Part shown: positions 6,388 to 57,588 of the stretch, piece by piece
Position numbering within the stretch: position 1 is the first letter of the stretch
Layout of the letters: each line of letters opens with the position of its first letter
DNA from: Hypericum androsaemum
Taxonomy: Eukaryota; Streptophyta; Magnoliopsida; Malpighiales; Hypericaceae
Assembly (NCBI GenBank): GCA_963995505.1
Contig: OZ023182.1
Coordinates: forward strand, 16,343,619 to 16,407,618
Length of the DNA: 64,000 bases
Direction: 5' to 3'
Program-made: the position numbers and the translations under genes
Notes under the pieces: model-generated
The model's input: only the letters and a program-made list of their open reading frames with translations
Database searches by the model: none
What the model was told of the DNA's origin: nothing

Positions 6388-7441
6388 TAGAATACACATG
6401 CAAGGGAAAATGAACCAAGGACACTTAAGAAAGTGTGGACCTGGCCAAACCTGCTTAGTTTTTATTCAACTCTCACCTTGTACCTCAGTCAATTTTTTTT
6501 CTTTTCTTTTTCGTTGAATCGTTACTCCCACTTTAGGTACTAGATGATATAGCCATCTATGTATAATTACTTTCGTTTTCTGTGCAAAATCATTTGAACA
6601 TCATGTTACAGTCTATTCCATTAATGAAAGTTGATATGTTTTCTGGTGAAATGGATTATGTTTCTATGCTGGATTAGAGGACCTGTTATTGCAGGATTCT
6701 TCTCTTCCTCACTGTTTTTTTTTTCCTTCTGTTACTCATTACCGATTGTTTCTGCAGAGGATGCAGGCTCCAAAAAGTTCAACTGCTGGATCAATGGAAT
6801 CAATTTAAATGTTACTGAGATACATGTGATGGTAACAGCAGGATCGTTACTTTACACGTTCATTTATTTGGTAAAAGTCCCTTGCAGAGCCAATCCTATT
6901 GTTTAGTGGACTGGTGGCTTTTATTGTTCAAAAGGTGGATACATGATAGATCTGAAGATATATATATTGCGCCTTTCTGTGATCCATATGTAGCTATATC
7001 AGATAATTGAAACTTTCAATACCCTACTGGCGCGCTCCTTCGCCTGCCCAATCTATCCGCGCATGGGCCAACTATATGTTTGACTTCTTACAATTCACAC
7101 CTTACTATTGATTTGTTGCTTTTGTAAAAAAATGCTCTTTGACCTGGCACAAGACGTGTCTTGGAGACTTTGTTAATATGTAATACCAGAAGCGTGTATT
7201 CCAAGGCAGAAAGTCAACTCTTGTCTGTCTTTCCTCTGCAGCAGTTGGCCTCATTTTTCCAGGTACAATTTTTAAGAGAACTTGAAGTTAATTTCTCACA
7301 GATTTAATGGTGTAGAATGTCAGATGCAACTATGATGAAGCCTTTCAACTAAACTAATCTCGATCAGATAGACAGCATCTTCTTTGGCTGTGATTTTGTG
7401 CTTGTGAAGGTGTGGTTTTGGTTTTCTGTTTTAAGTGGTCA
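6388..7441 (+). other. ABIL 3' UTR and promoter/leader of the NAC-LRR gene
   Basis: No supported coding exon. The first part should hold the ABIL 3' UTR. The last few hundred bases must hold the leader of the next gene. The stretches that stay open here start without family resemblance and I do not call them. Confidence 0.5.
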
Positions 7442-10400
7442 ATGGATGAGAAGCAATTGCTGGAGCTGTCTCCTGGGTTCCGGTTCAATCCTACTGATGA
7501 ACAACTTGTGAAGTACTATCTAAAGAGAAAACTGTTGGGAAAACAGGTATCTGCGTTGCTTATTCCGGAGGTTGATATCTACAAGTTTGCACCTTGGGAT
7601 CTTCCTCAAATGGCTGGGTGGAAAGGTGATCAGTCCAAGTGGTACTTCTTTTGTCCCAGAAGCAACAGGTACAATAGATCAAACTGGCGTAGTAATGATT
7701 TCGGGCATTGGAAAACCACAGGCAAGGATAGATCTGTTCGTTGCAACAATGATGTTGTTGGGAAAAAAAGGACTTTGGTTTTCTACAGAGGTAGGGCGCC
7801 TTCAAGGGAGCGGACTGATTGGGTTATGCATGAATATATGATGGAAGAAAAGGAGTTGGATAGCTGCAAACCTGCTCCGGATTGGTTAGTCTTGTGTGGG
7901 ATCTTCAAGAAGAATGGACCAGGATGGAAAACCGATATGCCGTGGGATGCAACTCCATGGAAGAAAGAGGAAATCTGCAATGACGACGTCTTGTCCCAGG
8001 ATTTTCTGACAACAGCAACGTCAGTAGGTTATTTAGTGCCTGCAACTTCAGCTTCCCTTGAGAACCTTTTCACGTCGTGTCAGATCGAGGCTATGCCATC
8101 GTCTCCAAACATCACGTCGGAGATCCTGGACATGGACATCAGCTCATTGGTGAATAATGCCAGTGCAGTTACGGGAGATACCCTTTCAAAAGAATTTATG
8201 GGTGAAGACTCATATTTTTTCCCAAGCGGGTTTCCAGACGGAGATACCTTAGATCTATTCTCTTTTGAGAACTTGTTACCAGGAGGTCCCTCGGAATGCA
8301 ATGACAAAAAGACGAGTGAGGTATATGTTTCATTTTCGACGCTCGACTCCAAAACATAGTTTTTGATGTTTCTGTGGTAGGAGATGCTACATGGTATGGT
8401 TTCTCGTGCATTTGATTCTAACATTGGCAAACTGTTTTGTTCGCTCTCTTTCAAAGACCAAAAATTGGATGATCCTTTGTTCATGGATTGGTGAACAATA
8501 AACGATAGACAGAACATTTCCTCAGAATTCACATTCTTACTAGTTGGATTATCCGTTGTTCTTGTTGCAGCAGTATCTGGATATTTGGGGACCAGCAAGC
8601 TTCAAGAGCAGTGATCGATGGCAGAAAGTGCGGGATAATATCAAGAATCTCATTTATTTACACAGGTGTAGAAAACTTGATCTAGGGAACAAGAAGCCGA
8701 TCATTCTATTCTTTAAGAGTTTATTTTGATTCATTATATAGGTTCTGCCATTAGCTAATTGAATGCCTATTTTGAACAGAGGATATCGAGGCCCTGTAAG
8801 CTTCAGAAGTAGTGCCAGTGATCGATGGCAGAAAGTGCGGGATAACATCAAGAAGCTCATTTTTTTACACAGGTGTGGAAACTTGATCTAGAAAACAACA
8901 AGCTGAAAATTCTCTTCTTCAAGTGTCTTTATTCTGATGCATGCTATAGCTTCTGTCATTAGTTAATTGAATACCTATATTGAATAGAGGATATCGAGGC
9001 CCCGTAAGCTACCAGAAAGCAAAAGATACATCCTTGCAAGAGCTAGCTTCACAAGCATATAGTTGGGACACCACAGTTTGTGATCCAATCCTCTCGGGAG
9101 ATAGTGGGATATGCGTTTCTGCCGGAGCAGAAGAGAAACTCGTCAATTGCAGAAGGCTTAAGAACTCTGATTCCAAAACTGCTGATGACCAGTATTCCTT
9201 ATTAGATTATTCGGCTGGGAGACTTCCTGCTCAGTACCTAAGTAAGCTTGTTAATCTTCTCCTGCTTCTAACTCCTTCAAGATCGCTTACTCCGAATATT
9301 CGTGCTGAATGTCTTGTGAAAGTCTACTTACCTGGTAGCCACAATGTCTTGCTTCAGGTAGGAACTCCTTCAATGTTCCGCTTTTACTTCTCATTTGAAC
9401 ATGGTTTAATAATGCTTGGCAACTTGATGGTGTATGTTTATTCTTTATTAAATTGTACTAATTTCTAAATGTTACAGGATCTTGTGAACCTGAAACATCT
9501 TGACTTAAGTTATTCAAGCTTCATTAAGATGCCAGACCTTTCGAGGGCCTGCAAGCTGCATAATTTGGATCTTCATGGTTGCAATAATCTGGTTGATGTG
9601 TCTCCCGTCCAATATCTTACCGAGCTTGAGTACATCAATCTGAAAGGTTGTACATCATTGATGAGTCTTCCAAGCCTAATGGCACTGAAAATCCTCTGCT
9701 CGCTCGATGTCTCGGACTGCAATAATCTAAGAAGACTTCCCCCGTCACTAGGGTGCCTTTCAAGTCTTACAAGTTTGGATCTCAGAAATTGCAAGAGAAT
9801 TCAGAATCTTCCAAAGGGAATCTTGAGGCTGAAATCATTACAAACTCTATCCATCTCCGGGTGCTCAATGCTCATGGAACATGCTAGTCGAGTACCGACA
9901 CCCACCTTTGTTAATCCTTGCTTCCTCCCTCCTTCATGTTCCCAATCAGGTAACACAGACGACGGTAGAAATTTTAGCTACATGCAACCTTGTTTATATT
10001 CAAGGTTTAATTGAAATGGTTGAGAGTCCTAAGTATCTCATAAAGATAATCAACCGAACCATATGTTCATGATTGTCAGGTCCTGAAGGGATGCTTATTG
10101 AGCATCAGGAGAATCCAAGAGTTCACAGTTCCTTGCATATTTCGGCTGCAGGTATAAACGTTCTTCTCAGTTACTTCGGTTTCGGATCATTCCTCAGGAC
10201 AGAGTTTAAAGTTCTTTCCTATGCAGAAGTAACAGCATCATATCAACCTGTCGGTGAATATGCCTCAAAGATTACCTTACAGCAACCCCCGGAAGAAATA
10301 ATCTGCAATAAATACAACACGGGATTAGAAGATGCAGCAAAACCATCCTCAACAGCCCAGGACCTCGAACGGGTACTACTTGTAGTAACTACATGCAGTA

Positions 10401-10975
10401 GAAATGATTTGGAACATGCCGTTTCCACACTTGCAATCATTTTGGTAACTTAGCCAAGTGTTCTAAACGATTTACTTGGTTTTTTTTTCCTATCATACTT
10501 GCAGATTCCAGTGCGTTATCCTGTCACTTCCCAATCTCTACCGAGTTGTGGCAACTCGGACACAACTCGCTCATTTGATTTATCCACGCAGCATAGAGAA
10601 GTGTTGAAAAGGTACATGAGCATGCCAGTGGAGGCGATTCACCAGGCGAATGCTTTCTATGAGGTTCAAAGAACTGTCGAGTCACTTAATCAACGGAGTT
10701 TCGATCTGCACGAAAGTGCAAGTCTACATGACATGTTGTATTGCTTGGAGGAGCTCCAGGAGAACGTTCCTGCAACGATGGCACGTATGCATGATGCCCA
10801 AGTTTCTAAATCATCCTTCAAAGTGACATTGGCGCACCTTGGTTCGAGCTTTGCCCGAGCAGAGGAGCAGTACAGCTTACTGGCGGCTCAGTTTTTGGTG
10901 ATTTCTGATCAAGAAGAAGAACTGGATGCTGAGATTGAGAGTTTGTTGGCCAAGCGACAAGAGCTGATTGGTTAA
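7442..10975 (+). CDS. Predicted chimera: NAC domain + TNL-type LRRs + coiled-coil tail
   Basis: Eight exons join in frame: 7442-8320, 8571-8665, 8780-8872, 8988-9357, 9478-9949, 10080-10151, 10227-10372 and 10505-10975 (2598 bp, 865 residues). Residues about 9-165 are a complete NAC domain with all five subdomains (SPGFRFNPTDEQLVKYYL, IPEVDIYKFAPWDLP, SNDFGHWKTTGKDR, RTDWVMHEYM, DWLVLCGIFKKNG), a nuclear DNA-binding fold. Residues about 300-356 contain two copies of a segment ending DRWQKVRDNIK-LI-LHR. Residues about 430-610 resemble the LRR region of TIR-NB-LRR receptors (NLKHLDLSYSSFIKMPDLSR, LDLRNCKRIQNLPKG). The last ~150 residues are helical and acidic, ending with a coiled coil. No TIR or NB-ARC domain is present. 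The only ATG giving the NAC start is at 7442. Alternative: intron 1 is retained and the frame stops at 8357-8359, giving a 305-residue NAC protein alone. The NAC and LRR identities are strong; the fusion rests on splice phase only. Confidence 0.75.
8571..8987 (+). repeat. Tandem duplication of one exon plus its intron (2 x ~208 bp)
   Basis: Unit 1 (8571-8779) and unit 2 (8780-8987) match through exon and intron. Both contain AGTGATCGATGGCAGAAAG, end their exon with TTACACAG|GTGT, continue with AACTTGATCTAG in the intron, and close with a similar acceptor before AGGATATCGAGGCCC. That opening sequence also starts the following exon at 8988. Each copy keeps phase 2 at both ends, so the duplication lengthens the protein by 31 residues without breaking the frame. 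Confidence 0.9.
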
Positions 10976-11524
10976 TGCAATGCAACTGTTAGTTGGTTGC
11001 CAAAAAAGGGTACTTGATTGATTGATGGATGGCATAAGACGTTTACGAATTGATAAAAGCTTAGTGTTCAATCCTTGGTCAGTTGCTCCTGTGAGCCATG
11101 GTCAAGTCTTTTGGTGGCTCTCTGCAGGATGAACCACTGTAGTGTCTATAAAATTCAATACAATTAGATGGTGCATCCCGAAACATCTGTCAGAATCTCT
11201 CTTTTTATTCTCAAACATCAGTCAGCTACAAGAGCTATACTCTATCTATTTAGCCTCCTACTATGCCAATGTAATCTCAGCCACCTATCTAGTAGAACCA
11301 AGGTTGGTTTGAATTGAGACAAATTTAAATTATAATTTATCGAATTTGAATTATGAAAATTATGATTCATGTTCGAATTGCCAAAGGACGAATTCGAATA
11401 TGAATTCAGATTTGTATGAGCTTATCCGAATCCGATTAAATTTTTGACGAATTAAATTGAATTGAATCTAAATTGGATTCAATTCATGGTCACTCCCAAC
11501 TAGTCGGATATGTTTGTGCTTTCA
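10976..11524. other. 3' flank of the NAC-LRR gene, no further gene
   Basis: About 300 bases of likely 3' UTR are followed by an AT-rich stretch (about 11300-11490) with many GAATTC-like and AATTGAAT-like words. The latter resembles a decayed transposon, but I could not find matching ends. Confidence 0.45.
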
Positions 11525-11914: not shown

Positions 11915-12884
11915 TGTTGGGTTTTGAATGCATTTTTTAATGCATTTGGCCCAAAGTGGAAAGGCCTAAAGTGGAGGCCCAAAAGGGAAATGAATGGGGC
12001 AATACCACATTGATTAGAGCAAGGAGGATTTCCTTGTTTATAAGGAATTCCCCTCCTTGCCTCTCAACTTGATTGGCTACCCAAAAGGCTGACCCACCGC
12101 TAGCTGCCTGCGAGGACGGTGCGAAGCACGAGCACGCGCACGCGCTCGCGCTCGTGCACGCGCACGCGCTCGCGCTCGTGCACGCGCACGTGCGTGTGCG
12201 CATGGCGCATTGGACGCAGGTCGCAATGGGCGCTTTGTGGCGCACTTGGCACGTGCGCATCGTCGCGAGGAGCCTTAAGTATTTTGCCCGAGCCCGGAGG
12301 CAGCTGCGCAGCTACATAAGCGACGAGGAGCTGCGAGCGCCTTCAGGTTGGCCGCCGAAGAGGCACGACGGGGTGGAAAGTCCAGGAGACTTCCAGAAGG
12401 CCGAAGGGCTGCGAGATCCGTCACCGAAGGGCTACGAGCGCAGCCTGGCGCGCCTGGAAGGATCCAGAAGCCACCGAAGGGCCACGAGCGCAGCCAGTCA
12501 GCCTGTTGGCCGAGCGGACGCGTCCCTTCGGGGTGGCTGCCTCCCTGCCTCCTCCAGCCTATAAATAGGCCTGCCCCCCTGCCAGAATTCTCATCCCAGC
12601 AGCACATGCACCTCCTAGCATTGTTGTCTTCTCCTCTCCCCCCGTTCTTCATCTAGAAAAGAGTTCCGAAAGTTCTGGGTATATAAGGGTTCGCCCGAAA
12701 GTTTCGAGATACGTGTGCAACAGTCTTGGAAATGCCCTAAACAGTCGTTGTATCTTGGGGACGATTGCCGAAGCCCGTACCGCACTGAAATATACGGGGC
12801 AATCTCGTCTTACGGAGAAAGTGTCCAACACTTGCCTCGACTGAAGTAGATCCTAATCAAGTACACCAACTCCGACGAACAACA
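11915..12884 (+). repeat. 5' LTR of the copia element (970 bp)
   Basis: It runs from TGTTGGG to CAACA. The U3 region contains a GC-rich minisatellite at about 12124-12205 built from GCACGCGCACGCGCTCGCGC-type units. A TATA box, CTATAAATAGG, lies at 12559-12569, and a second TATATAAG lies at about 12680. The 3' LTR has a different array, (CACGAG)n, at the same U3 position. Confidence 0.9.
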
Positions 12885-12901
12885 ATCGTAAGACGAGATT
12901 G
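12800..12901. promoter_or_regulatory. 15-nt complementarity between LTR and primer-binding site position
   Basis: CAATCTCGTCTTACG at 12800-12814 inside the LTR is perfectly complementary to CGTAAGACGAGATTG at 12887-12901, which starts 2 bases after the LTR end, where a primer-binding site belongs. The usual plant copia site TGGTATCAGAGC is absent. The geometry would let an LTR-derived RNA prime minus-strand synthesis, as Tf1 does, but this is inference. Confidence 0.6.
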
Positions 12902-12912
12902 TGTACTTGAAG

Positions 12913-14349
12913 ATGGCATCGACAAGCTCAGCACCAGTGCCAGCGGTCCCAGGAACTGTCCACGCCGAAAGGCCGGCCAAGTTCAACGGTACCGAATTCA
13001 AGAGGTGGCAACAGAAGATGTTGTTCTACCTGACGACGCTCAACCTGGTCCGATTCTTAAAGGAAGAGGCTCCGAAGGTGGCGAAAAATGAGGCAGATCA
13101 ACAGAAGATCAACGCCCTCGATGCATGGAGTCACAGCGACTTCCTATGCCGGAACTACGTCCTGAATGGACTAGACGACACGCTCTACAACGTCTACGCG
13201 GAAGCTAAGACCGCTAAAGAGCTGTGGAGTTCACTCGAGAAGAAGTACAAAACGGAGGATGCCGGGACGAAGAAATTTATCGTCGAACGATTCCTCGACT
13301 TCAAGATGGTGGACTCCAAGAAGGTCATCGACCAAGTGCAAGAGTTGCAGCTGATCCTTCACGAGATCCAAGCCGAAGGGATGCAACTCAGCGAGTCCTT
13401 CCAAGTAGCTGCGATGATCGAGAAGCTCCCCCCGCTGTGGAAGGACTTCAAGAGCTACCTCAAGCACAAGAAAAAGGACATGGGCCTAGAAGACCTGATA
13501 GTGAGACTAAGGATCGAGGAAGACAACCGAAAATCCGAAGTCAAGCAAGGCAAGGCCAACTCTGAGACCACCGTGCACCTCGCTGAGGGAAAAAGTGGCA
13601 AGAAGAGGAAGAAGTCCGAGGATAAGCAGAAGGAGCAAAAGCCCAAGAAGAAAAAGATCAAGGGCGACTGCTACAAGTGCGGGAAACCCGGACACATGGC
13701 TAAGGACTGTCGCCAGCCGAAGAAGGACGACCAAGGAAGGGCTAACCTGGCTGAAGACTTATCCCAGATGGATCTGTCAGCCGTGGTGTTTGAAGCCAAC
13801 CTGGTGGACAATCCGAGAGAGTGGTTCGTGGACACTGGAGCTACCCGCCACGTCTGCTCGAACAAGGAGATGTTCTCGAACTATATCCCGATCACCGGCC
13901 GAAAGTTGTTCATGGGAAACTCCGCAACGTCCAAGATCGTTGGTCTGGGAAAGGTGGTCCTGAAGCTGACCTCAGGAAAGGAGCTGACCCTCAAGGATGT
14001 GCTGCATGTCCCGGACATCCGCAAGAACTTAGTTTCTGGCTCACTGTTAAGCAAAGCCGGTCTTAAGCTTATATTTGAGGCTGATAAGTTTGTACTGACC
14101 AAAGCGGGTCAATTCATAGGAAAGGGTTATCTAGAGAGGGGGCTCTTTAAGATGAATGTAATAACTGTACATCGCACCTTTAACGGTGAAAATAAAGTTA
14201 ATGCTTCTTCTTACTTGACCGAGTGTTCTAATTTATGGCATGGTAGATTAGGACACGTAAATCTAAACTCGCTAAGAAAGTTAGTAAGTTTAAATTTATT
14301 ACCGAATCTAGAGTTCAACCCATCCGATAAATATGAAGTATGTGTGTAG
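12913..14349 (+). pseudogene. Copia gag and protease region
   Basis: The frame starts at the ATG at 12913, just after the leader. It encodes a gag core of the UBN2 type ([17 protein letters not shown]), a basic tract, a CCHC zinc knuckle ([14 protein letters not shown]), the aspartic protease active site ([13 protein letters not shown]) and the GAG-pre-integrase motif ([17 protein letters not shown]). It ends early at a TAG at 14347-14349 inside the zinc-binding end of the pre-integrase segment, with homologous protein continuing directly after it in the same frame. Gag forms the particle and protease matures the polyprotein. Confidence 0.9.
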
Positions 14350-14355
14350 GCTAAA

Positions 14356-14900
14356 ATGACCAAAGCACCTTTCCATTCAGTGGAAAGAAGTACTACGCCT
14401 TTAGAATTAATTCATACGGACACTTGCGATATGAAACACGTGCAAACTAAAGGCGGGAAGAAATACTTCATCACGTTTATCGATGATTGCACGAGATACT
14501 GTTACGTATATCTCCTAAAGGGCAAAGACGAAGCTCTTGATACTTTTAAGAGATATAAGAATGAGGTTGAAAATCAATTCAGCGTGAAAATCAAAATGAT
14601 CTGAAGTGATCAAGGAGGAGAATATGTAGCTCCGTTTGAGGAACTCTGTCAAGAACATGGCATTATTCATCAGACGACTGCTCCATACTCACCTCAATCG
14701 AATGGCGTAGCTGAACGCAAAAATCGAACTCTTAAGGAGATGATGAACGCTATGTTGATTAGCTCGGGCTTACCCCAGAACATGTGGGGGGAAGCTGTGC
14801 TCTCAGCTAACCACATTCTAAACAAATTGCCACACAAGAAAGGGATAAAACCCCATATGAACTATGGAAAGGAAGGAAGCCTTCCTACGGTTACCTTAAA
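14356..14900 (+). pseudogene. Copia integrase region, broken
   Basis: The integrase core can be followed from HTDTCD (first catalytic Asp) through SDQGGEY (second Asp) to SPQSNGVAERKNRTLKEMM (catalytic Glu). An in-frame TGA at 14602-14604 falls just before SDQGGEY. A single-base loss near 14846 then shifts the frame into an early stop. This copy therefore cannot make a full integrase. Confidence 0.88.
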
Positions 14901-16796
14901 GTGTGGGGGTGCCTAGCAAAGGTCGAAGTACCTAAGCCTAAGCAGGTGCGAATAGGACCCAAGACCATTGATTGCATCTTTATCGGATATGCGCAAAATA
15001 GTAGTGCTTATCGATTCTTGGTGCATAAATCTGAAAATCCTGAGATAAACACGGGAATGGTCATAGAATCAAGGAACGCAACGTTTTTTGAAGATAGCTT
15101 TCCTAATAAGGAAAGAAAGGAAGCAAGTCCGAAGAAAAGGGCTCACGAGACTATGCAAGGGTCAAATCAGAAAGATGATGAACCTAGACGTAGTAAACGG
15201 ACGAAGGTAACCAAATCATTCGGTCCGGACTATCTAACCTATACGTTAGAAGATGAACCCAGGACAATCCAAGAGGCATTGTCCAGTCCAGATGCTCCTC
15301 TCTGGAAGGAAGCTATCAATAGTGAGATAGAATTTATTATGCAAAACCACACGTGGGAAATCGTGGATCTCCCACCGGGCTGCAAACCTTTGGGATGCAG
15401 GTGGATCCTAAAAAGGAAATACAAAGATGATGGATCAATCGACAAGTACAAAGCTCGATTGGTAGCTAAGGGGTTCAAGCAGAAGGAGGGATATGATTTC
15501 TTTGACACGTATTCACCGGTCACAAGAATCACATCGATTAGAGTACTCATAGCTGTTGCAGCACTCTATAACCTCGAGATCCACCAAATGGATGTAAAAA
15601 TAGCTTTCCTAAATAGAGAACTGGAAGAGGAGATATACATGGAGCAACCTGAAGGGTCTGTGGCTCCCGGTCAAGAGCATAAAGTATGTCGACTAGTCAA
15701 GTCACTATACGGGCTAAAACAAGCGCCAAAACAGTGGCACGAGAAATTTGACAGAACAATGTTGTCAAATGGATTTAAGATCAATGAGTGCGATAAATGT
15801 GTTTACATTAAGGGCACACCTGAAGCTTACGTAATTGTATGTCTCTATGTAGATGACTTACTAATTATGGGAAGCAATAAAGAGGTTATTGTGAAAACTA
15901 AGAACGTGTTAAAGAACCACTTTGACATGAAAGATATGGGTTTGGCAGACGTCATACTAGGAATAAAAATTTCTAGGAAAGCTAACGAAATTATCTTGAC
16001 GCAATTCCACTACGTGAAAAGCGTGCTCAAGAAATTTGAAGCTTTTGACAAACCTCCGGTTAAGACTCCAGTAGATTTGAATCTACACTTAGCCAAGAAT
16101 CGAGGGGACCCAGTATCTCAACTGAAGTATGCACAAATTATCGGGAGCTTGATGTATTTAACAAACTGCACTCGTCCCGATATCGCGTACTCGGTTAGTA
16201 AACTTAGTAGATTCACAAGTAATCCAGGAAAGGATCACTGGCTAGCTCTAGAAAGGGTTTTACGGTATTTAAAACATACCATAAACCATGGCACACATTA
16301 TGCTAAATATCCAGCTGTATTAGAAGGATACAGTGACGCAAACTGGATATCAGACACTAAGGACTCCAAATCTACGAGTGGATACGTATTCACCATAGGA
16401 GAAGGAGCTGTGTCTTGGAAGTCCTCTAAACAAACGTGCATAGCTCAATCCACCATGGAGTCGGAGTTTATAGCACTAGACAAAGCTGGGGAAGAAGCTG
16501 AATGGCTCAGAATCTTCCTAGAGGATATTCCGTGCTGGAGTAAACCGGTGCCTCCCGTATTGATACATTGTGATAGCATGTCTGCAATCGGGAGAGCACA
16601 AAGTACATTGTACAACGAAAAGTCTCGACATATCCGTCGGAGACACAATACCGTTAGACAGTTGATCTCTAGTGGGGTGATCACCATTAATTATGTAAAG
16701 TCCAAGGACAACTTAGCTGATCCTCTTACGAAAGGAATCAATAGAGATCAAATGTACAACGCAGTAAGGGGAATGGGATTAAAATCCTCACACTAA
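14901..16796 (+). pseudogene. Copia reverse transcriptase and RNase H region
   Basis: The long open stretch encodes the copia RT fingers and palm ([38 protein letters not shown]), the catalytic [12 protein letters not shown] box, and RNase H with [24 protein letters not shown] and the C-terminal DPLTKGINR. It is intact in itself but is cut off from gag by the upstream frameshift and stops, so it is part of a dead polyprotein. The true integrase-RT boundary lies inside this frame. Confidence 0.9.
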
Positions 16797-17340
16797 AGAA
16801 CGTCCATAGCGGTAACTCAACCATGATGAGTGGAGATCCCACAAACTTGGTTCAATGAGAAAACTAAGTTATGGAGGGTTCAGTTTAATCACCTGGAACC
16901 TATCTCATTCTCAGAAGCTGCCCAGGTGTTAGCCTGCAGCAGTGTGGTAAGGTTAAGCATTACGGTTTTAATAATTCCTATACCTTGATTAAGGTGGAGT
17001 ATGGCAGGATACTCCTGATAGGAGATCACCTATGTAAGTATGAAGTGAGGCCGCTTCAAATGGGAAAAACACTTATGAATCCAAGATACGGTCCATGGCC
17101 GAAACGGACACAACGTGAGAACCTAAATATACTAGGATTATTATTGTGTAAATGTTATTGTCTTGGTTTACACCAAAAGCTGACGGTTCAAGACATCACG
17201 TTCATCGAGCAGCGAGTAAATCTGATAACATATTACTAGAGAAGGTTCAAACCCGCAAGCTACCTGTCTCGATGCAATAATAACACGTCAGAACTTTCGA
17301 TTAGAGTCTGCATGCATTAATCATCATTCATGTGGGGGAT
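16797..17340 (+). other. Copia 3' non-coding region with polypurine tract
   Basis: No coding signal. The purine-rich TGTGGGGGAT at 17331-17340 abuts the 3' LTR and is the expected plus-strand primer. Confidence 0.75.
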
Positions 17341-17543
17341 TGTTGGGTTTTGAATGCATTTTTTAATGCATTTGGCCCAAAGTGGAGGCCCAAAGTGGAA
17401 ATGAATGGGGCAATACCACATTGATTAGAGCAAGGAGGATTTCCTTGTTTATAAGGAATTCCCCTCCTTGCCTCTCAACTTGATTGGCTACCCAAAAGGC
17501 TGACCCACCGCTAGCTGCCTGCGAGGACGGTGCGAAGCACCGT

Positions 17544-17638
<95 letters not shown>
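17341..17638 (+). repeat. 3' LTR of the copia element, first part
   Basis: It matches 11915 onward, with one deletion near 17380 relative to the 5' LTR. It is interrupted after 17638 by the Athila insertion and continues at 27978. Confidence 0.93.
17546..17638 (+). repeat. (CACGAG)n hexanucleotide array, about 15 units
   Basis: A perfect hexamer array sits in the U3 region of the copia 3' LTR. The Athila element inserted inside it, duplicating ACGAG. A few degenerate units remain on the far side at 27978-28000. The 5' LTR has a different, longer-unit array at this spot. Confidence 0.92.
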
Positions 17639-19296
17639 TGACGTACGCAAAATTGACAAGCAATTTTAACGCACAAACAAATAGTATAGTGTATAAGTAA
17701 GGTTCTTGAACTGAGAGAGATAGAACATGAAAATTAAAACAATCAATCGTATGTAGCCAAATTGAAATAAGTTCGTAAAGTAAAGAATGATATGAGGTTG
17801 CAAGACAATAAGTAAACTAAGAAATGTAAATAGACGGTTTGTACTTTAATAAAATAAAGAGAGCACGATGCTTTTATGGACTACCTATCTATGTCAAGAT
17901 CATGGTTATTTATGAAGTTCTAACTAGTACCCGGAGTGTTCTAATGCATCCTCCTAACGCTTTCGCTCATTAGGCCGATAAAACTAAGCTAGAATAGTTC
18001 ACGAATACCAACTAACGCTTTCGCTCATTAATTAGATCGTGAACTAAGCTAAACTCAATTATAAAGTTAACTCCTCGTGGGTTATCCCTTAGTATCAAGA
18101 TGTCTCATTAATACCTAAGAATATGTCAATTGATCCTTCCGTTGAATTTAATGCCTTTCGGTCCACTATCATCAACTAACATCATAATCTAAGTGATCAA
18201 GTTAGATTAAGCATTACGATCATCAATTGACAACTACTACGAAAGTTGATCAAACCATAACCCAACATAGATAAGTAATCACATAATTAAAGCATCGTAC
18301 TCACAAGAAAAACTACTCACAAGTCATGTTCATACAAGAAGAAAACTTATACAAGAAAATGATAGAAAGTAACATTAAAGAGAGAGATAGAGAAAACTCA
18401 AGATGTGGTCAAGAGCTTCCTCAAGCATCCTTCTTCAAGCTCCCTTCTAGCATTCCTCCAATGGTGCTCCTCCTTGGTATTCCTCACAACTCTCAATCTC
18501 ACAACTATATTCTTCAAAAACTAGATATCTCTTTGAGAGCAATTCCCTCCTCTATTTATAGTGAATGAGATGAGAGCTTTTTCTCCACTCATCCATCAAA
18601 AGAGAAGGTGGATGGATGAATATTCTCTCTTTTGAGTTGGAAAGCCTTTCTTTTGATGGTGGAAAGCACTTTGGAGGTGGAAAGCTCCACTTTGGAGGTG
18701 GAAAGCTCTTCTTTCCAACAAGGAGCACCAAGGAGAATTATTTATACAAGGCACTCAAGTTCCCAGCCATGTGAAAGAAAGAAAGGCAATCATGGTCCAT
18801 AATGGTCCTTGAATTTTCGGCCAAATTTGTACAGATTGCTGGCAGAATTAACGCTCGACTTTGGACGTGATTTTTATCCCTTTTGGGCTTCGAATTTGAA
18901 GAAGCCCATCAGAGACAAATGTGTAGCCCAGGATGTCTTCTTTCCGGAGCAACTGAGTTTGCCTTCATCGGTCTTCGGATGAGAAAGTTATCTACATTTA
19001 AGTTACAGGAGGTCAAACTCGCCCACATCTTCGAGTGCCCGATCAAGCGTCAATCTTTTAGGCTACTCCGATAGACTTCAACACGAACCAATGGTGCACC
19101 AACATCCTCCCTCTCATCTCACAAGGGCTTCTAGCAATAAACATGAAAGAAACACAATAAAAATTAAGAGGTTACACGAAAACTAACATAATACGAAATA
19201 AGAGATATTAACATCAAATAACACGTAAACCTACTAGAAATGATAGGAATTCAATGCTAAAACATACGCAAACAATGAATGTTTTCACACTCATCA
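17639..19296 (-). repeat. 3' LTR of the Athila element (1658 bp)
   Basis: TG...CA ends. It is the counterpart of 26321-27977. Compared with that LTR it has CCCATCAG (there CCCATTAG), TTTGCCTTCATC (there one C fewer) and GATAGACTTC (there GATAGAATTC). Confidence 0.95.
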
Positions 19297-21107: not shown

Positions 21108-24100
21108 TCAGAGTTCCTCGAGTTCTTGGAGTTGCAGCACCCGACGTTCTCCCGCAAGCTTGTAGTCATAGTTCAATGTCTTGATTGCCCAAAATGCTCG
21201 GTGTTCAAGCTCCACTGGGAGGTGACACGCCTTGCCGTAGACCAGGCGATATGGCGTTGTGCCTATAGGGGTTTTGAAAGCAGTGCGGTAAGCCCATAAG
21301 GCATCATCAAGCTTACCCAACCAATCTTTCCGTGCTGAGCTCACTGTCTTTTCTAGAATTTTCTTCAGCTCCCTATTAGATACTTCAACTTGACCACTGG
21401 TTTGAGGATGATAAGGTGTGGCAACCTTATGAGTGACTCCATAGCGCCGGAGAAGCGTGGCAAAAGGTTGGTTGCAGAAGTGTGAACCGCCATCACTGAT
21501 GATTGCACGAGGAACACCGAATCGGGCGAAGAGCTGCTTGAGGAATCGTAAGACCACCTTGGCATCGTTTGTTGGAGTAGCCCATGCCTCTACCCATTTG
21601 GAGACGTAGTCGACTCCGACAATGATGTACTTGTTACTTTTAGAGGGAGGGAAAGGACCCATGAAGTCGATCCCCCACACATCAAACAGCTCAACCTCTA
21701 GAATACCAGACTGGGGCATTTCATCTCGTCGAGAAATATTACCTGTTGGTTGACAACGATCACAATGCTCAGTGAATGCTCTTGCATCTTTGAAAATTGT
21801 AGGCCAATAGAACCCACACTCAAGAACTCGTGAAGCTGTTCTTGATGCTCCGAAGTGTCCAGCGTAAACTGATCCATGACACTCTTGGAGAATAGATGGT
21901 ATTTCCTCGTCTGGAATACATCGTCGTAGAAGGCCATCCACACATCTCCTGAATAGATATGGCTCATCCCTCGCATAGAAACGCACATCACTGAGGAACT
22001 TCTTTCTCTGAGGGTAGCTCAAGTCTTCGGGCATGACTTCACTCACCAAATAGTTGGCAAAATCTGCGTACCAAGGAGGCGCCACTGCTTGGACATAGAA
22101 CAAAGCTTCATCTGGGAAGTATTCGAGAATCCTTCCTTCCTTTTCCATTCCATCGTTGTACTCCAAGCGGGACAAGTGATCTGCGACCACGTTCTCCGTG
22201 CCCTTCTTATCCTTAATCACTAGATCAAATTCCTGCAAAAGTAAAATCCAACGGATAAGTCGGGGTTTTGCATCTTGTTTAGCAAAGAGGTACCTCAAGG
22301 CTGCGTGGTCGGTGTAGATGATGACTTTAGAGCCTAACAAGTAAGGCCTGAATTTGTCGCAAGCATACACCACCGCAAGTAGCTCTTTTTCCGTGGTGGT
22401 GTAGTTAAGTTGTGCTCCAGCGAGAACACGACTTGCATAATAGATGACATGCAGCCGCCCTTCCTTTCGTTGTCCGAGGACACAACCCAAGACATCATTG
22501 CTTGCATCACACATAAGCTCAAATGGGAGGTCCCACGATGGTGAAGTGATAATTGGAGCGGTGACCAATGCTTCTTGGAGTGTCCTGAAAGCACTTAGAC
22601 AAGAATCATCAAACTCAAAGGTGACATCCTTATTCAAGAGGTTAGTCAAGGGTTTTGCAATAGAAGAGAATTTCTTTATAAAGCGTCGATAAAACCCTGC
22701 ATGTCCTAGGAATGCGCGGATGCCCTTTACCGTCGTCGGTGGTTGCATTTTTTCGATCGCCTCGGTCTTGGCACGATCAACTTCAATTCCAGCCTTTGAG
22801 ATCTTGTGACCCAATACTATGCCTTCTTCCACCATAAAATGACATTTCTCCCAATTAAGCACGAGCTTCTTCTCTTCGCATCTCTTGAGTACTCTATCCA
22901 AGTTGTGGAGGCAACATTCAAATGAATCTCCAAAGACAGAGAAATCATCCATGAAAACCTCCATGATGTCTTCATTCATCCCCCAAAAGATTGCCATCAT
23001 GCACCGTTGAAAAGTGGCAGGAGCATTGCACAGACCAAAAGGCATTCTCCTGTATGCAAAAGTGCCAAAAGGACAAGTGAAAGTAGTCTTATCTTGGTCT
23101 CCAGGATAGATGAGTACCTGATTATACCCGCAATAACCATCTAGGAAGCAGTAGTAGGCATGTCCAGCAATACGCTCCAACATTTGATCAATAAAGGGAA
23201 GAGGAAAGTGATCCTTCCGAGTAGCGGCATTGAGTTTTCTGTAGTCGATGCATACACGCCACCCAGTAACTACTCTTGTTGAGATGAGTTCCCCTTCCTC
23301 ATTAGTTTGCACCGTCATACCTCCTTTCTTGGGCACACATTGGACAGGGCTCACCCATTCGCTATCTGAAATAAGAAAAATAATTCCAGCATCGAGAAGT
23401 TTGATTACCTCTTTTTTCACAACCTCTCTCATGTTTGGATTTAGTCTTCGTTGACGATCGGCCCTGGGCTTTGACCCTTCCTCTATGTTGATGCGGTGCA
23501 TCACAATGTCAGAGCTAATTCCATGGATATCAGAAATTTGCCATCCCATGGCCTTGATTCTTTTGTTCACCAGTGTAAGAACTTGCTCTTCTTGCTCCGG
23601 AGTAAGCTTGTTGGAGATAATTATTGGCAGCCTTCCTCCTTCTCTTAAGAAAGCATATCGCAAGTGAGGAGGTAACTCTTTCAGCTCCACAGCGGGGGCT
23701 TTAACAGTGGATGGTAGCGTAGGAGCCCCCTTGTAAAATGCTAGCTCCAATTTTTCCTCCTCTTTGTCTACTTCTTCATTTTCTTCGGCCTCTTCAACTT
23801 CGTGCACTTGTTCAAGGGTTTCTGCCTCTTCTTCCTCTGTCAAAGACCAGCTCCACTGTTCTTCAGAATAAAGCATTTCATCGGGCATCGTATCGATGCG
23901 CAGGCAATCTTCATCATCGCGGTGGTGCTGCATTGCTTTGGCCATTTGGTACTCTATTGTTTCTTCCCCAACACGTAGAGTTAGCTTCCCTCCATTGACA
24001 TCGATTAAGGCACGGCTGGTGTTGAGGAATGGCCTTCCTAGGAGAAGAGGACAATTCTTGTCTGGGTCAAAGTCCAAGACTACAAAATCTGCTGGAACAT

Positions 24101-24182
24101 AGAATTGCTCGAATTTGACTAGCACATCCTCCGCAATTCCATGTGGTCTCTTGACAGTCTGGTCTGCCAGCTGAAGACGCAT
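21108..24182 (-). pseudogene. Athila pol: protease end, RT, RNase H, integrase
   Basis: This 1024-codon open stretch covers the end of the protease ([17 protein letters not shown]), RT ([20 protein letters not shown], then the catalytic [10 protein letters not shown]), RNase H ([29 protein letters not shown]), the integrase HHCC zinc finger ([10 protein letters not shown]...CDRC) and the D,D,E core ([30 protein letters not shown]). It is cut upstream by a TGA at 24201-24203 in the protease and ends at a TGA at 21108-21110. Both stops interrupt clear homology in the same frame. Confidence 0.92.
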
Positions 24183-24200
24183 CTCTGTTGGCTTAAGGTC

Positions 24201-26204
24201 TCAAAGTCCTAGTTGCCTGAAGATAGTTAACGGCATGAGGTTAATGCTGGCACCAAGATCACACAAGCACTTAGAAAATTCAACATCACCAATAAAACAA
24301 GGGATAGTAAAACTCCCTGGATCCTTAAGCTTAGCCGGCAAATCCTTGGAGATGAGTGAGCTGCAATTGACGGTTAGAGATATCGTTTCTTCTTTGTCCC
24401 ACTTCTTCTTATTGGTGAGGAGTCCTTTGAGGAATTTGGCATAATGCGGCATTTGATCAAGCATCTCCAAGAAAGAGACACTTATCTGAATACCCTTCAT
24501 CTTTTCAATAAAACCAATGAATCTTTTATCTTCCATTGGTTTCTTCTTGAGTCGTTGAGGAAACGGTGGAGGTGGAATTCTTGGTGGTGGAGGAACATAA
24601 AATTCCTCTTCTTCAATGGGCTGAACTAGCACTTCTTCCTTCTCTTTCTCCTTCACTTTCTCCTTCTCTTTGGATGTCGTAGAGGCTCCTTCGATCTCCT
24701 TGCCACTTCTTAGAGTAACAGCTTTGACATCTCCTCTTGGGTTAGCCTCTGTGTTGCTTGGCAGTGAACCTATCGGTCGTCGAGTATTTGCTGCAGCTAA
24801 GTTTCCAAGTTCAATTTCCATCTTTTTGAGTTGTGTTGCTTGCCCTTTAAGGAATGTCTCAATCTCTTGCTGTCGAACTTCACAACGATCCATCCGCTGC
24901 ACAGTTATGGATTGTTGTTGAATAGACTGCTGGACTACTCCAACTAGCTGGTCGATCTTTGCGAAGACGTTGACTTGGTCGCCCACCAGCTGGTCGATCT
25001 TATCTCCCATTGTTTTGACTTGATCTCCCACATATGGTTTTCTGTGCTCTTGCTGAGTGCCAGTGTTGTATGGCTGCTTTCCAAATCGAGAGAAATTTGG
25101 TTGACTTTGGTTGGAGTAACCTAACCCTCCTGGTTGCCTATCAGCGATAGCTTGAATTTCTTCCAATACTGGACAGTCATTGGTGGGATGCTTTTCTTTG
25201 CAAAGTTCACAAACATCTTGCACTGCAGCTATCTTTTCCTTGCTTTTAGCCAGGTCTTCAAATCTTCTGGTAAGGGCCTCAAGCCTGGCTTCGAGCTTGG
25301 TGTTGCTATCCACTTCCAGTATCCCTCGGGTTGCTCCTCTGTGTGGTATTCTGGCAGACTCCTTTGGCCACATGCCATTGACTTCTGCCATCTCCTCCAT
25401 CAAACGAGTGGCCTCGTCAGCAGTATTTCTTAAGAACACCCCTTGAGATGAGGCATCAATATGATCACGAGATGGGCCATCTAACCCATTGTAGAAGATC
25501 TTCATGAGGTTCTCCTGTGATATGCCATGTTGAGGGAAAGCTCCTTGGAGATCTGTGAATCTCTCCCAAGCTTCATAGATGCTCTCCCCATCTCTTTGGA
25601 CAAAGGTGTTGATTTCTTGCAAGAGTTTGGCCGACTTGGCCATGGAGAAGAACTTTCGCAGGAAAGCATGGGCTAAGTCTATCCAACTCCTTATTGTCTC
25701 TCCTTTCAACTTGTTATACCATACACGAGCTCGATCCTTCAGAGAGAAGTGAAAGAGACGTAGCTTCAAGACGTCATCATCTATTCCGTGAAACTTCATG
25801 ATATTGCATATATCCTCGAATCGAGAAAGATGGTCTTGAGGATCTTCACTCGGTAATCCATAAAACTGGACAGAATTTTGCAGTAATCCCACAATGGCTG
25901 CTGGGATCTGGAATGAGTGGGCTCCTATTGGTGGTTGTTGCAACCCATTAGGATTCCCATTCCATGTAGGAACAGATGACTCCAGCAGGGTCCTTCTTCG
26001 TGGCGCACCTGCAAGGGCTTGGGTTGCTTCCAAAGTAGCGTCATAAAGAGCTTGGGTCGCCTCGTCATTATCATCCTGATTTTGTGCCATGGATCTGGAT
26101 TGGTCTCTCCTTTCACGCCTAATTCTCCTTTCAAGTATATTGATGTCAATCTCAGATAAGGCGTTTGTGTCAGGGCCAAGTCCTGCACTCCGGGTTCTTG
26201 GCAT
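24201..26204 (-). pseudogene. Athila gag and start of protease
   Basis: It starts at an ATG 117 bases inside the 5' LTR border (MPRTRSAGLGPDTN). The retrotransposon gag domain follows (EDPQDHLSRFEDICNIMKFH, RVWYNKLKGETIRSW), then a zinc-knuckle-like CELCKEKHPTNDC, a Lys/Glu-rich and Pro-rich linker, and the protease active site CLCDLGASINLMPL. It terminates a few residues later at TGA 24201-24203, in the middle of the protease fold, so it is not a natural gag end. Confidence 0.92.
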
Positions 26205-26297
26205 GCACTAAAGAGACTCGCAAAAGCGAGTGCACAAAATCAGCAAATATGCTGTACACAAAACCAATTACTTTTGGTTTTATGTCCTAAAATCTCA

Positions 26298-26320: not shown

Positions 26321-27977
26321 TGACGTACGCAAAATTGACAAGCAATTTTAACGCACAAACAAATAGTATAGTGTATAAGTAAGGTTCTTGAACTGAGAGA
26401 GATAGAACATGAAAATTAAAACAATCAATCGTATGTAGCCAAATTGAAATAAGTTCGTAAAGTAAAGAATGATATGAGGTTGCAAGACAATAAGTAAACT
26501 AAGAAATGTAAATAGACGGTTTGTACTTTAATAAAATAAAGAGAGCACGATGCTTTTATGGACTACCTATCTATGTCAAGATCATGGTTATTTATGAAGT
26601 TCTAACTAGTACCCGGAGTGTTCTAATGCATCCTCCTAACGCTTTCGCTCATTAGGCCGATAAAACTAAGCTAGAATAGTTCACGAATACCAACTAACGC
26701 TTTCGCTCATTAATTAGATCGTGAACTAAGCTAAACTCAATTATAAAGTTAACTCCTCGTGGGTTATCCCTTAGTATCAAGATGTCTCATTAATACCTAA
26801 GAATATGTCAATTGATCCTTCCGTTGAATTTAATGCCTTTCGGTCCACTATCATCAACTAACATCATAATCTAAGTGATCAAGTTAGATTAAGCATTACG
26901 ATCATCAATTGACAACTACTACGAAAGTTGATCAAACCATAACCCAACATAGATAAGTAATCACATAATTAAAGCATCGTACTCACAAGAAAAACTACTC
27001 ACAAGTCATGTTCATACAAGAAGAAAACTTATACAAGAAAATGATAGAAAGTAACATTAAAGAGAGAGATAGAGAAAACTCAAGATGTGGTCAAGAGCTT
27101 CCTCAAGCATCCTTCTTCAAGCTCCCTTCTAGCATTCCTCCAATGGTGCTCCTCCTTGGTATTCCTCACAACTCTCAATCTCACAACTATATTCTTCAAA
27201 AACTAGATATCTCTTTGAGAGCAATTCCCTCCTCTATTTATAGTGAATGAGATGAGAGCTTTTTCTCCACTCATCCATCAAAAGAGAAGGTGGATGGATG
27301 AATATTCTCTCTTTTGAGTTGGAAAGCCTTTCTTTTGATGGTGGAAAGCACTTTGGAGGTGGAAAGCTCCACTTTGGAGGTGGAAAGCTCTTCTTTCCAA
27401 CAAGGAGCACCAAGGAGAATTATTTATACAAGGCACTCAAGTTCCCAGCCATGTGAAAGAAAGAAAGGCAATCATGGTCCATAATGGTCCTTGAATTTTC
27501 GGCCAAATTTGTACAGATTGCTGGCAGAATTAACGCTCGACTTTGGACGTGATTTTTATCCCTTTTGGGCTTCGAATTTGAAGAAGCCCATTAGAGACAA
27601 ATGTGTAGCCCAGGATGTCTTCTTTCCGGAGCAACTGAGTTTGCTTCATCGGTCTTCGGATGAGAAAGTTATCTACATTTAAGTTACAGGAGGTCAAACT
27701 CGCCCACATCTTCGAGTGCCCGATCAAGCGTCAATCTTTTAGGCTACTCCGATAGAATTCAACACGAACCAATGGTGCACCAACATCCTCCCTCTCATCT
27801 CACAAGGGCTTCTAGCAATAAACATGAAAGAAACACAATAAAAATTAAGAGGTTACACGAAAACTAACATAATACGAAATAAGAGATATTAACATCAAAT
27901 AACACGTAAACCTACTAGAAATGATAGGAATTCAATGCTAAAACATACGCAAACAATGAATGTTTTCACACTCATCA
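26321..27977 (-). repeat. 5' LTR of the Athila element (1657 bp)
   Basis: It is nearly identical to 17639-19296 and flanked on the right by the ACGAG target duplication. Confidence 0.95.
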
Positions 27978-44463: not shown

Positions 44464-47171
44464 ATGGCTATGGAAGTTACACAGGTGCTATTAAATGCAC
44501 AATCTATTGATGGAAATGTGCGGAAGCATGCTGAGGAAAGTCTAAGGCAGTTTCAGGAGCAAAATCTACCTATTTTTTTGCTTTCTCTCTCTGCTGAGCT
44601 AGCTAATGATGAGAAGCCTGTTGAAAGCCGTAAGCTAGCTGGTTTAGTCCTGAAGAATGCCTTGGATGCAAAGGAACAACATAGAAAGCTTGAACTTGTT
44701 CAAAGATGGTTGTCACTAGATTTGAATGTTAAAGGTCAAATCAAGGCATATTTATTGAAGACGTTGTCTTCTCCTGCACCTGATGCTCGGTCAACTGCAT
44801 CTCAAGTCATTGCCAAGGTTGCGGGCATTGAACTACCCCAAAAACAGTGGCCTGAGCTCATAGGATCACTTTTGTCAAATATTCACCAACTACCAGCTCA
44901 TGTCAAGCAAGCCACTTTGGAGACTCTTGGTTACTTATGTGAAGAAGTTTCTCCTGATGTCATAGACCAGGATCATGTCAACAAGATACTTACAGCAGTA
45001 GTTCAGGGCATGAATGCAGCTGAAGGAAACAATGACGTCCGGCTTGCTGCCACAAGGTCACTGTATAATGCTCTTGGATTTGCTCAGGCAAATTTCAATA
45101 ACGACATGGAACGCGACTATATTATGAGGGTTGTCTGTGAGGCCACTCTTTCGCCTGAAGTGAAGATACGGCAGGCGGCATTTGAGTGTTTGGTCTCTAT
45201 TTCTTCAACTTATTATGAAAAATTGGCTCCTTACATTCAAGATGTATTTAATATCACTGCCAAGGCAGTGAGGGAGGACCAGGAACCTGTAGCTCTTCAA
45301 GCTGTTGAATTTTGGAGTTCGATATGTGACGAGGAGATAGACATCTTGGAGGAATATGGAGGTGATTTCACAGGGGACTCTGATATCCCTTGCTTTTATT
45401 TCATCAAGCAGGCGCTTCCTGCTCTTGTACCCATGCTGTTGGAAACACTACTCAAGCAAGAAGAGGATCAAGATCAGGATGAAGGGGCTTGGAACATATC
45501 AATGGCAGGGGGCACTTGCCTTGGTTTGGTAGCACGCACGGTGGGTGATGATATTGTTCCGCTCGTTATGCCATTTATTGAAGAGAATATTACAAAACCT
45601 GAATGGAGGCAACGGGAAGCTGCAACATATGCATTCGGCTCAATCTTGGAGGGGCCGTCTCCTGACAAGTTGACACCTATTGTTAATGTTGCTCTGAATT
45701 TTATGCTCACTGCGTTGACAAAAGACCCAAACAACCATGTCAAAGATACCACTGCTTGGACTCTTGGGAGAATCTTCGAATTTCTTCATGGTTCAGCTTT
45801 GGATGCACCTATAATCACTCAGGCTAATTGCCAGCAGATCGTAACAGTTCTGCTTCAGAGCATGAAAGATGTGCCAAATGTTGCCGAGAAGGCATGTGGT
45901 GCGCTGTATTTCCTTGCACAGGGTTATGAAGATGTTGGGCCATCGTCTCCTTTGACCCCTTATTTCCAGGAAATTGTTCATGCTCTTCTCACAGTTACTC
46001 ACCGAGAAGACGCAGGAGAATCACGTCTAAGAACTGCTGCTTATGAAACATTGAATGAAGTGGTGAGATGCTCCACCGAGGAAACTTCACCGATGGTTCT
46101 GCAACTAATTCCTGTCATCATGAATGAGCTCCACAACACGCTTGAAGGACAAAAACTTTCCTCCGATGAAAGGGAGAAGCAGAGTGAATTGCAGGGTCTC
46201 CTTTGTGGTTGTTTACAAGTAATTATTCAGAAGATAGGGTCATCAGATCCAACCAAGCATGTCTTTATGCAGTATGCAGACCAGATGATGGGGCTTTTCT
46301 TGAAAGTTTTTGCTTGTAGAAGTGCCACTGTACATGAAGAGGCCATGCTGGCTATTGGGGCTTTTGCTTATGCCACTGGTCCAGATTTTGCAAAATACAT
46401 GCCTGAGTTCTACAAGTACTTGGAGATGGGTCTGCAGAACTTCGAAGAATACCAAGTATGCTCTGTTACTGTTGGAGTTGTGGGTGATATTTGCAGGGCA
46501 TTGGAAGACAAGATTTTACCTTACTGTGATGGCATTATGACACAACTTCTCAAGGATCTATCAAGTAACCAGCTTCATCGATCTGTGAAGCCTCCCATCT
46601 TCTCATGTTTCGGTGACATTGCACTGGCAATTGGAGAGAATTTTGAGAAGTACTTGATGTACGCCATGCCCATGCTCCAAAGTGCTGCAGAATTATCTGC
46701 TCATGTACCAGGTGCTGATGATGAGATGACTGAGTACACAAATTCTCTGAGAAATGGAATATTGGAAGCATATTCAGGACTTCTTCAAGGGTTCAAAAAC
46801 TCACCAAAGACCCAGCTCTTGATTCCTTATGCACCTCACATCCTTCAGTTTTTGGATAGCATCTATATGGAGAAAGATATGTGAGTACTGCTGAACATCC
46901 TCTCATTTTTTGTAATACTATTTAGTAAATCAGAATTGTGGTTTATCGTGCATTATTTTGTTTTTTGTGCAGGGATGATCTGGTAATGAAAACTGCTATT
47001 GGGGTACTTGGGGACCTAGCGGATACACTGGGAAATCACGCTGGATCTTTGATTCAGCAATCTCTCTCTTGCAAGGAATTTTTAACTGAATGTTTGTCTT
47101 CTGACGACCATATGATTAAGGAATCCGCTGAGTGGGCCAAGTTGGCCATCACCCGTGCCATTTCTGTTTAA
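44464..47171 (+). CDS. KPNB1: Importin subunit beta-1 (karyopherin beta 1)
   Basis: Importin beta carries importin-alpha/NLS cargo through nuclear pores and releases it on Ran-GTP binding; plant KPNB1 also affects ABA responses. Two coding exons, 44464-46880 and 46973-47171, give 871 residues, matching the usual ~870. The N-terminus (MAMEVTQVLLNAQSIDGNVR) begins the importin-beta N-terminal HEAT region (HAEESLRQFQEQNLP, SRKLAGLVLKNALDAKE). The whole protein is HEAT-repeat-like helices. The acidic loop around EEDQDQDEGAWNISMAGGTC matches the conserved acidic loop near HEAT 8, and REAATYAFGSILEGP is also conserved. The ATG chosen is the first after the leader intron. The gene is intact, with no odd residues noted. 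Confidence 0.97.
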
Positions 47172-57290: not shown

Positions 57291-57588
57291 TGAAATTAAA
57301 CCCCAAAGAACAAACAAGTTCTTCAATAAACGTGCCAACCATTCTTGAACATAATAGATATTTGAAATTTAGAAAAAGTCTACTTTAGTACCCTGTGATA
57401 TAGTCCAAAATCACTTTAGTACCCTGTGGTAAAAAACTGACCAATCAAGTTATACTTATTCCAATTAACATCAAAAAGGTCCACGGGCAGCTACCCGGAC
57501 CTGCCCGAACCGAGCTGGTTGAAACGACGTCGTTTTAATAATGACGTGGCATGCCACGTCAGATTTTCTAGCATACTTGTAAACACGA
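57291..57588. other. Transposon-like flank with a perfect 20-bp palindrome
   Basis: From about 57368 the DNA repeats GTCTACTTTAGTACCCTGTG / AATCACTTTAGTACCCTGTGG, the look of a DNA-transposon end; a similar sequence in the other orientation ends near 42630. The second Athila element lies inside it. TGACGTGGCATGCCACGTCA at 57542-57561 is a perfect palindrome. Confidence 0.55.

Follow-up and report, generated by a model that had tools for sequence, protein, structure and literature searches.

A stretch of the Hypericum androsaemum genome (64,000 nucleotides of contig OZ023182.1, assembly GCA_963995505.1; C3:16343619-16407618, hereafter the window) raises the question of how a NAC transcription factor domain came to stand in frame before the leucine-rich repeats (LRRs) of an immune receptor that has neither a TIR nor an NB-ARC domain. 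The element concerned is a predicted gene of eight exons on the plus strand (7442..10975); its existence as a sequence feature is confirmed, and it is probably a real gene too. Based on a search of the plant's own genome (385 Mb, 29 contigs), we favour, with some reservation, the explanation that it belongs to a set of at least nine integrated-domain-LRR genes that arose from a TIR-NB-ARC-LRR receptor (TNL) and probably serve as baits together with intact TNLs. The original prediction had likened the gene to the integrated decoys of nucleotide-binding LRR receptors (NLRs) with the switch removed, and this likeness gained support from nine such loci with different heads and from the presence of the same tail in a complete TNL.

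Rebuilding the predicted exon chain reproduced the in-frame joining of NAC, LRR, and tail, with 865 codons in 2598 bp free of interrupting stops and GT-AG at 7/7 introns. Exon 1 (7442..8320) carries the NAC domain, matched by Pfam at 7472-7840 and lying on the NAC82 side, followed by a linker. Intron 1 (8321..8570), which defines the key junction 8320/8571, contains the stop of a NAC-only form (8357-8359) and an AATAAA at 8497; its start is retained in a decayed copy (L037). Exons 2 (8571..8665) and 3 (8780..8872; 93 bp, phase 2-2) are the two copies of a tandem-duplicated exon. Exon 4 (8988..9357) is specific to this head in its 5' part, shared with three other loci (L017, L018, and L019) from about position 9076, and ends with the first LRR. 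After a phase-0 intron (9358..9477), exon 5 (9478..9949) encodes TNL-type LRRs, about six repeats by our own count, with matches to Pfam LRR families. Exons 6 (10080..10151) and 7 (10227..10372) form a post-LRR linker, and exon 8 (10505..10975) encodes a helical C-terminal tail and the stop, all on the plus strand. The donor at 10372 is weak when scored against an approximate consensus, and four other nearby GT sites would also keep the frame. Exons had a G+C content of 42-47% versus 31-40% for the introns, which were also richer in T. Codon-usage scoring was poor for the LRR exon, with a small training set in which one of three frames was unverified. Exon 4 gave no Pfam match at an E value of 1, and the Pfam matches of exon 8 were weak and all below the cut-off, leaving the tail without a family.

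As predicted, the LRR region is of the TNL type, and TIR and NB-ARC are missing: a search of the window and of the 19.8 kb upstream of it yielded neither. The LRR region had been described as opening with the NLKHLDLSYS/MPDLSR pattern, but one more repeat precedes this at the 3' end of exon 4, and the alignment with TNLs runs collinearly through the intervening intron. With exon 4 taken alone, 6/1000 shuffles scored higher; scored with a five-sequence profile, it was non-significant.

A search with the exon 2-4 peptide revealed three further modules on C3, namely L017, L018, and L019. The LRR-tail module common to them (9076..10993, plus strand) shows 76-93% DNA identity between the blocks of the window and these copies, and the LRR and tail blocks among all four C3 copies are 72-93% identical. 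In the whole genome, the LRR exon had at least 31 matches at an E value of 1e-12 or better (150 of 1046 candidates scored). The tail exon had 12, all of which were examined: nine loci with LRR and tail, one full TNL (L036 on C14), one decayed NAC with tail (L037 on C11), and one orphan tail (L031). In L036, TIR, NB-ARC, LRR, and tail follow each other in order, and the NB-ARC frame is open over 421 codons. At all nine LRR-tail loci, TIR and NB-ARC were absent from the stretches examined, which for the eight sisters extended 5.5-8.6 kb in the 5' direction from the LRR exon. AlphaFold, run on the single sequence, predicted helices for the tail with a mean predicted local distance difference test score (pLDDT) of 53.5.

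In each of the ten copies from which a module tree was built, the LRR and tail pieces were open. Ratios of nonsynonymous to synonymous substitution (dN/dS; Nei-Gojobori, pairwise point estimates among the four C3 copies) were 0.19-0.47 for the LRR exon and 0.31-0.53 for the tail exon, all 12 comparisons included. The NAC domains of the window and L017 gave 0.55; the NAC appears to be more weakly constrained than the LRR.

Upstream of the module, a foreign domain on the same strand was found at 9/9 loci, and the nine modules carry nine different heads or head sets. On C3, these are NAM in the window, NAM plus WRKY at L017, WRKY at L018, and B3 at L019; L030 on C9 bears Zf_WRKY19 repeats in 11 stretches, L032 a VQ, L033 an AP2, and L034 a MYB head, and L035 on C14 a heavy-metal-associated (HMA) domain. 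By our own reading of motifs, the WRKY domains would belong to group III at L017 and group IIe at L018, and the heads of L019, L033, and L034 would be of the ARF, ERF, and R2R3 types, respectively. The HMA fragment of L035 was not called by Pfam; its best PDB matches were a rice OSIGBa0128P10.9 chain (E 1.3e-8), an ancestral Pik-1 HMA (2e-8), and RGA5/Pik-1 HMA entries. The match begins about 27 residues into the chain, with the first part of the domain outside the open frame, and no exon for that part was found. The gap between head match and LRR start was 247-1455 bp over the nine loci, counted at L019 from where the ARF-like frame ends and at L030 from the last repeat motif. At two of the nine loci (L030 and L035), a single open frame contains both the head and the start of the LRR, and the link there therefore needs no guess about splicing.

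The history of these loci points to repeated exchange. In the tree of ten modules, the window paired with L018 and L017 with L019, L030 joined these four, and the VQ, AP2, and MYB copies grouped together. A NAC head is common only to the window and L017 (and the decayed L037), and the modules of the first two are not sisters; heads and modules have therefore changed partners through duplication or conversion. A segment of 2.1 kb that begins before exon 4 is 87% identical between L017 and L019, as though one block, bringing its own splice acceptor, had come to lie behind two different genes. L037 retains, in order, the window positions 7001-8097, 8230-8402, 8879-8946, 10637-10805, and 10890-11000, covering the 5' flank, NAC, intron 1, the intron between exons 2 and 3, and the tail. 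Everything between the region upstream of the NAC and the tail was apparently copied to another chromosome as one piece, which then decayed.

The NAC head itself is well recognizable and at the same time diverged. Exon 1 aligned with positions 2-121 of the 122 of Pfam NAM (E 6.1e-41), and its NAC is 75% identical to that of L017 at the DNA level across 537 bp. In a tree of 46 rows hand-picked among 316 fetched proteins, it grouped on the NAC82 side; its end branch measured 1.25 versus a median of 0.15 (about eightfold), and on so long a branch this placement is unsure. For conserved positions, 196 of the 316 rows were used after dropping 98 from the LRR search, 8 odd ones, and 14 that were too short or without the start motif. 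At 55 positions conserved in at least 95%, the window NAC is changed at 8 and kept at 47, while the other rows have 0.6 changes on average and at most 7. According to PMC11644316, a salt bridge between Glu26 and Arg19 stabilizes the ANAC019 dimer. In the window NAC, R14 is kept and Q21 takes the place of Glu26, where 196/196 aligned NACs carry E, and the Arg19-Glu26 pair is not present. A retrocopy origin of the intronless NAC exon was considered and dropped, because the closest paralogues of this NAC (C9:11217895, C9:10968743, C2:7387431, and C2:6962715) likewise have a frame open through the NAC domain; many other NAC matches in the genome are split.

Under the explanation we favour, the C-terminal module of a TNL, composed of a short LRR and the helical tail, would have been joined repeatedly behind the domains of other genes, and TIR and NB-ARC would have been lost. 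In the window, the NAC and LRR parts would make one protein. The head would be a bait touched by an effector, several heads being of kinds known as effector targets, and LRR and tail would link it with a complete TNL from the same stock, where the switch and the TIR signal would reside. Each of the nine proteins would most likely be a bait of this kind. NAM, B3, and WRKY have been described as integrated in NLRs, and AP2, HMA, and NAM as being among effector targets (PMC4759884); HMA is integrated in RGA5 (PMC5819176). MYB, VQ, and Zf_WRKY19 were not among the integrated or target kinds in the accessible parts of these two papers. Going one step further, these genes may be switch-less immune sensors, in which the LRR and tail of a TNL serve as a standard adaptor for any effector target, with at least nine baits made by swapping heads and working through shared intact TNLs elsewhere in the genome; we advance this only tentatively. 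Integrated decoys known so far sit on an NLR chassis with an ATPase switch. If the reading of the nine loci is true, an LRR-tail alone can carry a bait and sensing is split from switching. The loci would then also be a natural template of interchangeable adaptors, and their heads (HMA, WRKY, NAC, MYB, AP2, VQ, ARF, and Zf_WRKY19) would hint at pathogen targets in the plant.

Several results weigh against this explanation. With the NB-ARC of a related TNL as query, at least 105 TNL-type NB-ARC matches were obtained (105 of 335 candidates scored), including L036, which alone among the matches listed lies near a module, 13.5 kb from L035. The two stand head to head, with 11 kb from the start of the HMA frame to the TIR match. 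For the other eight modules, no TNL NB-ARC was listed within 180 kb, the nearest ones being 185 kb from L033, 560 kb from L032, and 3.4 Mb from L034, and none of the listed matches lies on C3 or C9, which hold five modules. The list is a lower bound and covers the TNL-type NB-ARC, and on it the evidence runs against linked pairs of module and TNL as a rule; any docking would involve a TNL partner that is unlinked for eight of the nine. The lack of a listed TNL near these eight modules makes the bait explanation and its bolder version somewhat less likely, and two of the rivals slightly more so. In a general NB-ARC search, L036 was not among the 125 scored of 373 candidates. Likewise, no protein with NAC and LRR but without NB-ARC was among the matches listed in three protein searches. 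Of 7988 proteins scored with the chimera, 1942 reached an E value of 0.001 or better, and the best 120 were examined; residues 294-865 gave 98 of 7993, all of them examined, and the NAC-only form gave 7092 of 7989, again with the best 120 examined. Finally, dN/dS of exon 4 was 0.29-1.1 over six comparisons, reaching 1.1 for L017/L019 and 0.81 for the window/L018.

The remaining points against a fusion concern the link between head and LRR, and they lead to the likeliest rival, by which the loci are neighbours, with LRR-tail modules that were dispersed by duplication and happen to lie behind transcription factor genes. In the window, a NAC gene ending at 8359 or about 8494 would then precede an LRR gene, or the remnant of one, of its own. 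The stop at 8359, a possible extra exon at 8381-8494, and the AATAAA at 8497 would allow a product with the NAC alone. The in-phase joining of NAC and exon 2 taken alone is weak evidence that easily arises by chance, because 8 of 20 surrounding donor-acceptor pairs stay open through exon 4. At seven of the nine loci, head and LRR are linked by order, strand, distance, and possible splicing, and the number of in-frame splice pairs (18 to 197 per link, for seven links at six loci tried) is too large to serve as a test. At L017, the NAC frame picks up a short piece of the module and then reaches a stop before WRKY and LRR, and a NAC adjoining a module therefore need not mean fusion. Moreover, an in-frame Met stands directly before exon 5 in the window (9469), L017, and L019.

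Other results speak against a separate LRR gene. Exons 2-4 contain no Met across 186 codons, so their protein must begin upstream, and for a start in frame from intron 1 only five combinations of ATG and donor were found, one of them with a good donor but a first exon of one residue. The stretch 8381-8497 is intron-like in composition. At 8/9 module loci, the intron that follows the LRR start has its phase-0 GT donor; the exception is L018, where exons 4 and 5 are fused exactly at the predicted splice point (window intron 9358-9477), which would be best explained by a copy of spliced RNA. The Met at 9469 therefore sits inside what appears to be a spliced intron. Together with the single open frames of L030 and L035 and the heads on the same strand in 9/9 loci, this makes mere neighbourhood unlikely in our view, though we give it real weight.

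Exons 2 and 3 bear on a further rival. A tandem duplication (8609..9010, plus strand) repeats the unit 8609-8802 as 8816-9010 at 86% identity, with changes at 4/80 exon sites versus 20/113 intron sites (Fisher p 0.008). Exons 2 and 3 may represent a degenerate half of a WRKY domain, which we offer as a guess. In free local alignment, the score was reached by 1086/2000 shuffles (non-significant). With the register fixed by the phase-2 intron between R and GY, it was reached against the L018 WRKY by 240 and 767 of 20000 shuffles (spans 22 and 20), against the L017 WRKY by 3906 and 8312, and for exon 2 alone by 1230. A derivation of exon 4 from NAC82 via one Tetracentron protein was rejected: though 0/300 shuffles reached the score, it was a single match whose motif was not seen in other NACs. 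The degenerate-looking exon 2/3 duplicates, the decayed L037 and L031, and the long NAC branch would fit debris of TNL shuffling, that is, short-lived chimeras without function. Since LRR and tail are open in 10/10 copies, with dN/dS of 0.19-0.53 in 12/12 pairwise comparisons of four copies, we hold this to be rather improbable.

The weakest rival, already raised in the original prediction, is that the heads still bind DNA and are gated by the LRR-tail, and despite the recognizable DNA-binding domains of the NAC, WRKY, B3, AP2, and MYB heads and the 47/55 conserved positions kept in the window NAC, it has lost ground and seems quite improbable given HMA, VQ, and Zf_WRKY19 among the sister heads, the 8/55 changed positions, the Q at the Glu26 position, and the end branch about eight times the median.

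With respect to other species, the protein searches grouped the NAC among NAC82-type proteins and the LRR among NLRs. Among the matches listed, NAC and LRR occurred together only with NB-ARC, as full TNLs in two genes (three rows), namely Malus P0016 with the NAC first and Populus P0022/P0023 with the NAC last. The heads of these NAC-TNLs fell into the NAC17 clade of the same tree, while the window NAC lies on the NAC82 side. ANAC082, which is not known to carry an LRR, is a further relative. It shares the NAC82-type NAC domain (PMC5767325), from which that of the window has diverged. NAM is listed as an integrated domain of NLRs in B. napus, M. domestica, P. trichocarpa, S. bicolor, and S. 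italica (PMC4759884), and NAC domains in NLRs are also reported in PMC5067614.

Like the known NLRs with integrated domains (RRS1-WRKY, Pik-1/RGA5-HMA), the loci would combine an NLR-type LRR with a foreign domain, in several of them of the NAM, WRKY, B3, or HMA kind, and one copy (L035) stands head to head with a TNL. Unlike these, TIR and NB-ARC were not found in any of the nine copies, and the head precedes the LRR. The nine loci thus appear to go beyond known NLRs with integrated domains, which keep the NB-ARC, yet follow the same idea. The major integration clade 1 (MIC1) of grasses (PMC5819176) is similar in that one receptor stock takes up many domains at one protein position and moves between chromosomes. 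Its members are defined on the NB-ARC, with domains mostly after the LRR; our loci derive from a TNL stock, have lost the NB-ARC, carry their domains before the LRR, and have a TNL neighbour in 1/9 cases only. RW7 of Gossypium raimondii (LRR-WRKY-WRKY-CaM-WRKY; PMC4350883) is listed with LRR and WRKY and without NB-ARC, but has a different domain order, two members, and no helical tail in the accessible description. A sorghum NLR that carries a NAC as well as a WRKY domain (PMC5067614; RW6 in PMC4350883) resembles L017 in combining the two domains; it has an NB-ARC, whereas the NAC frame of L017 closes before the WRKY. The claim that no established family has this layout held among the proteins listed, with the qualification that NAC-TNLs with NB-ARC are known and an LRR-WRKY group listed without NB-ARC, RW7, has been published. 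A family without NB-ARC and with swapped heads was not found in the literature searched, where most subscription papers fell outside reach.

Some further observations concern related elements elsewhere in the genome. The orphan tail L031 (C9:1487700-1497499) lies 9.5 kb from the tail of L030, without LRR or recognized head. On C14, a cluster of LRRs (6758688-6860063) that are 43-49% identical to the window LRR lies among TNL NB-ARC matches, without tail matches. L042 (C20:5693000-5702900) comprises two head-to-head TNLs with identical TIR frames of 175 residues; the one on the minus strand has a stop in the NB-ARC frame and ends near an LRR that is 51% identical to that of the window.

Within the window, the NAC-LRR gene is followed just downstream by a long terminal repeat (LTR) retrotransposon (11915-17609), Copia-like by our own reading, with an interrupted coding frame and ends (11915-12193 and 17341-17609) that are 87% identical. 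The 862 bases at 17639-18500, where the query ended, recur with 100% identity at 26321-27182, and copies of 78-80% identity were found at 57584 and 63352. Two long open frames on the minus strand (21111-26207) appear Gypsy-like by our own reading. Further downstream, an importin beta gene (44467-46878, plus strand) and an APO RNA-binding gene (48479-49324, minus strand) were identified.

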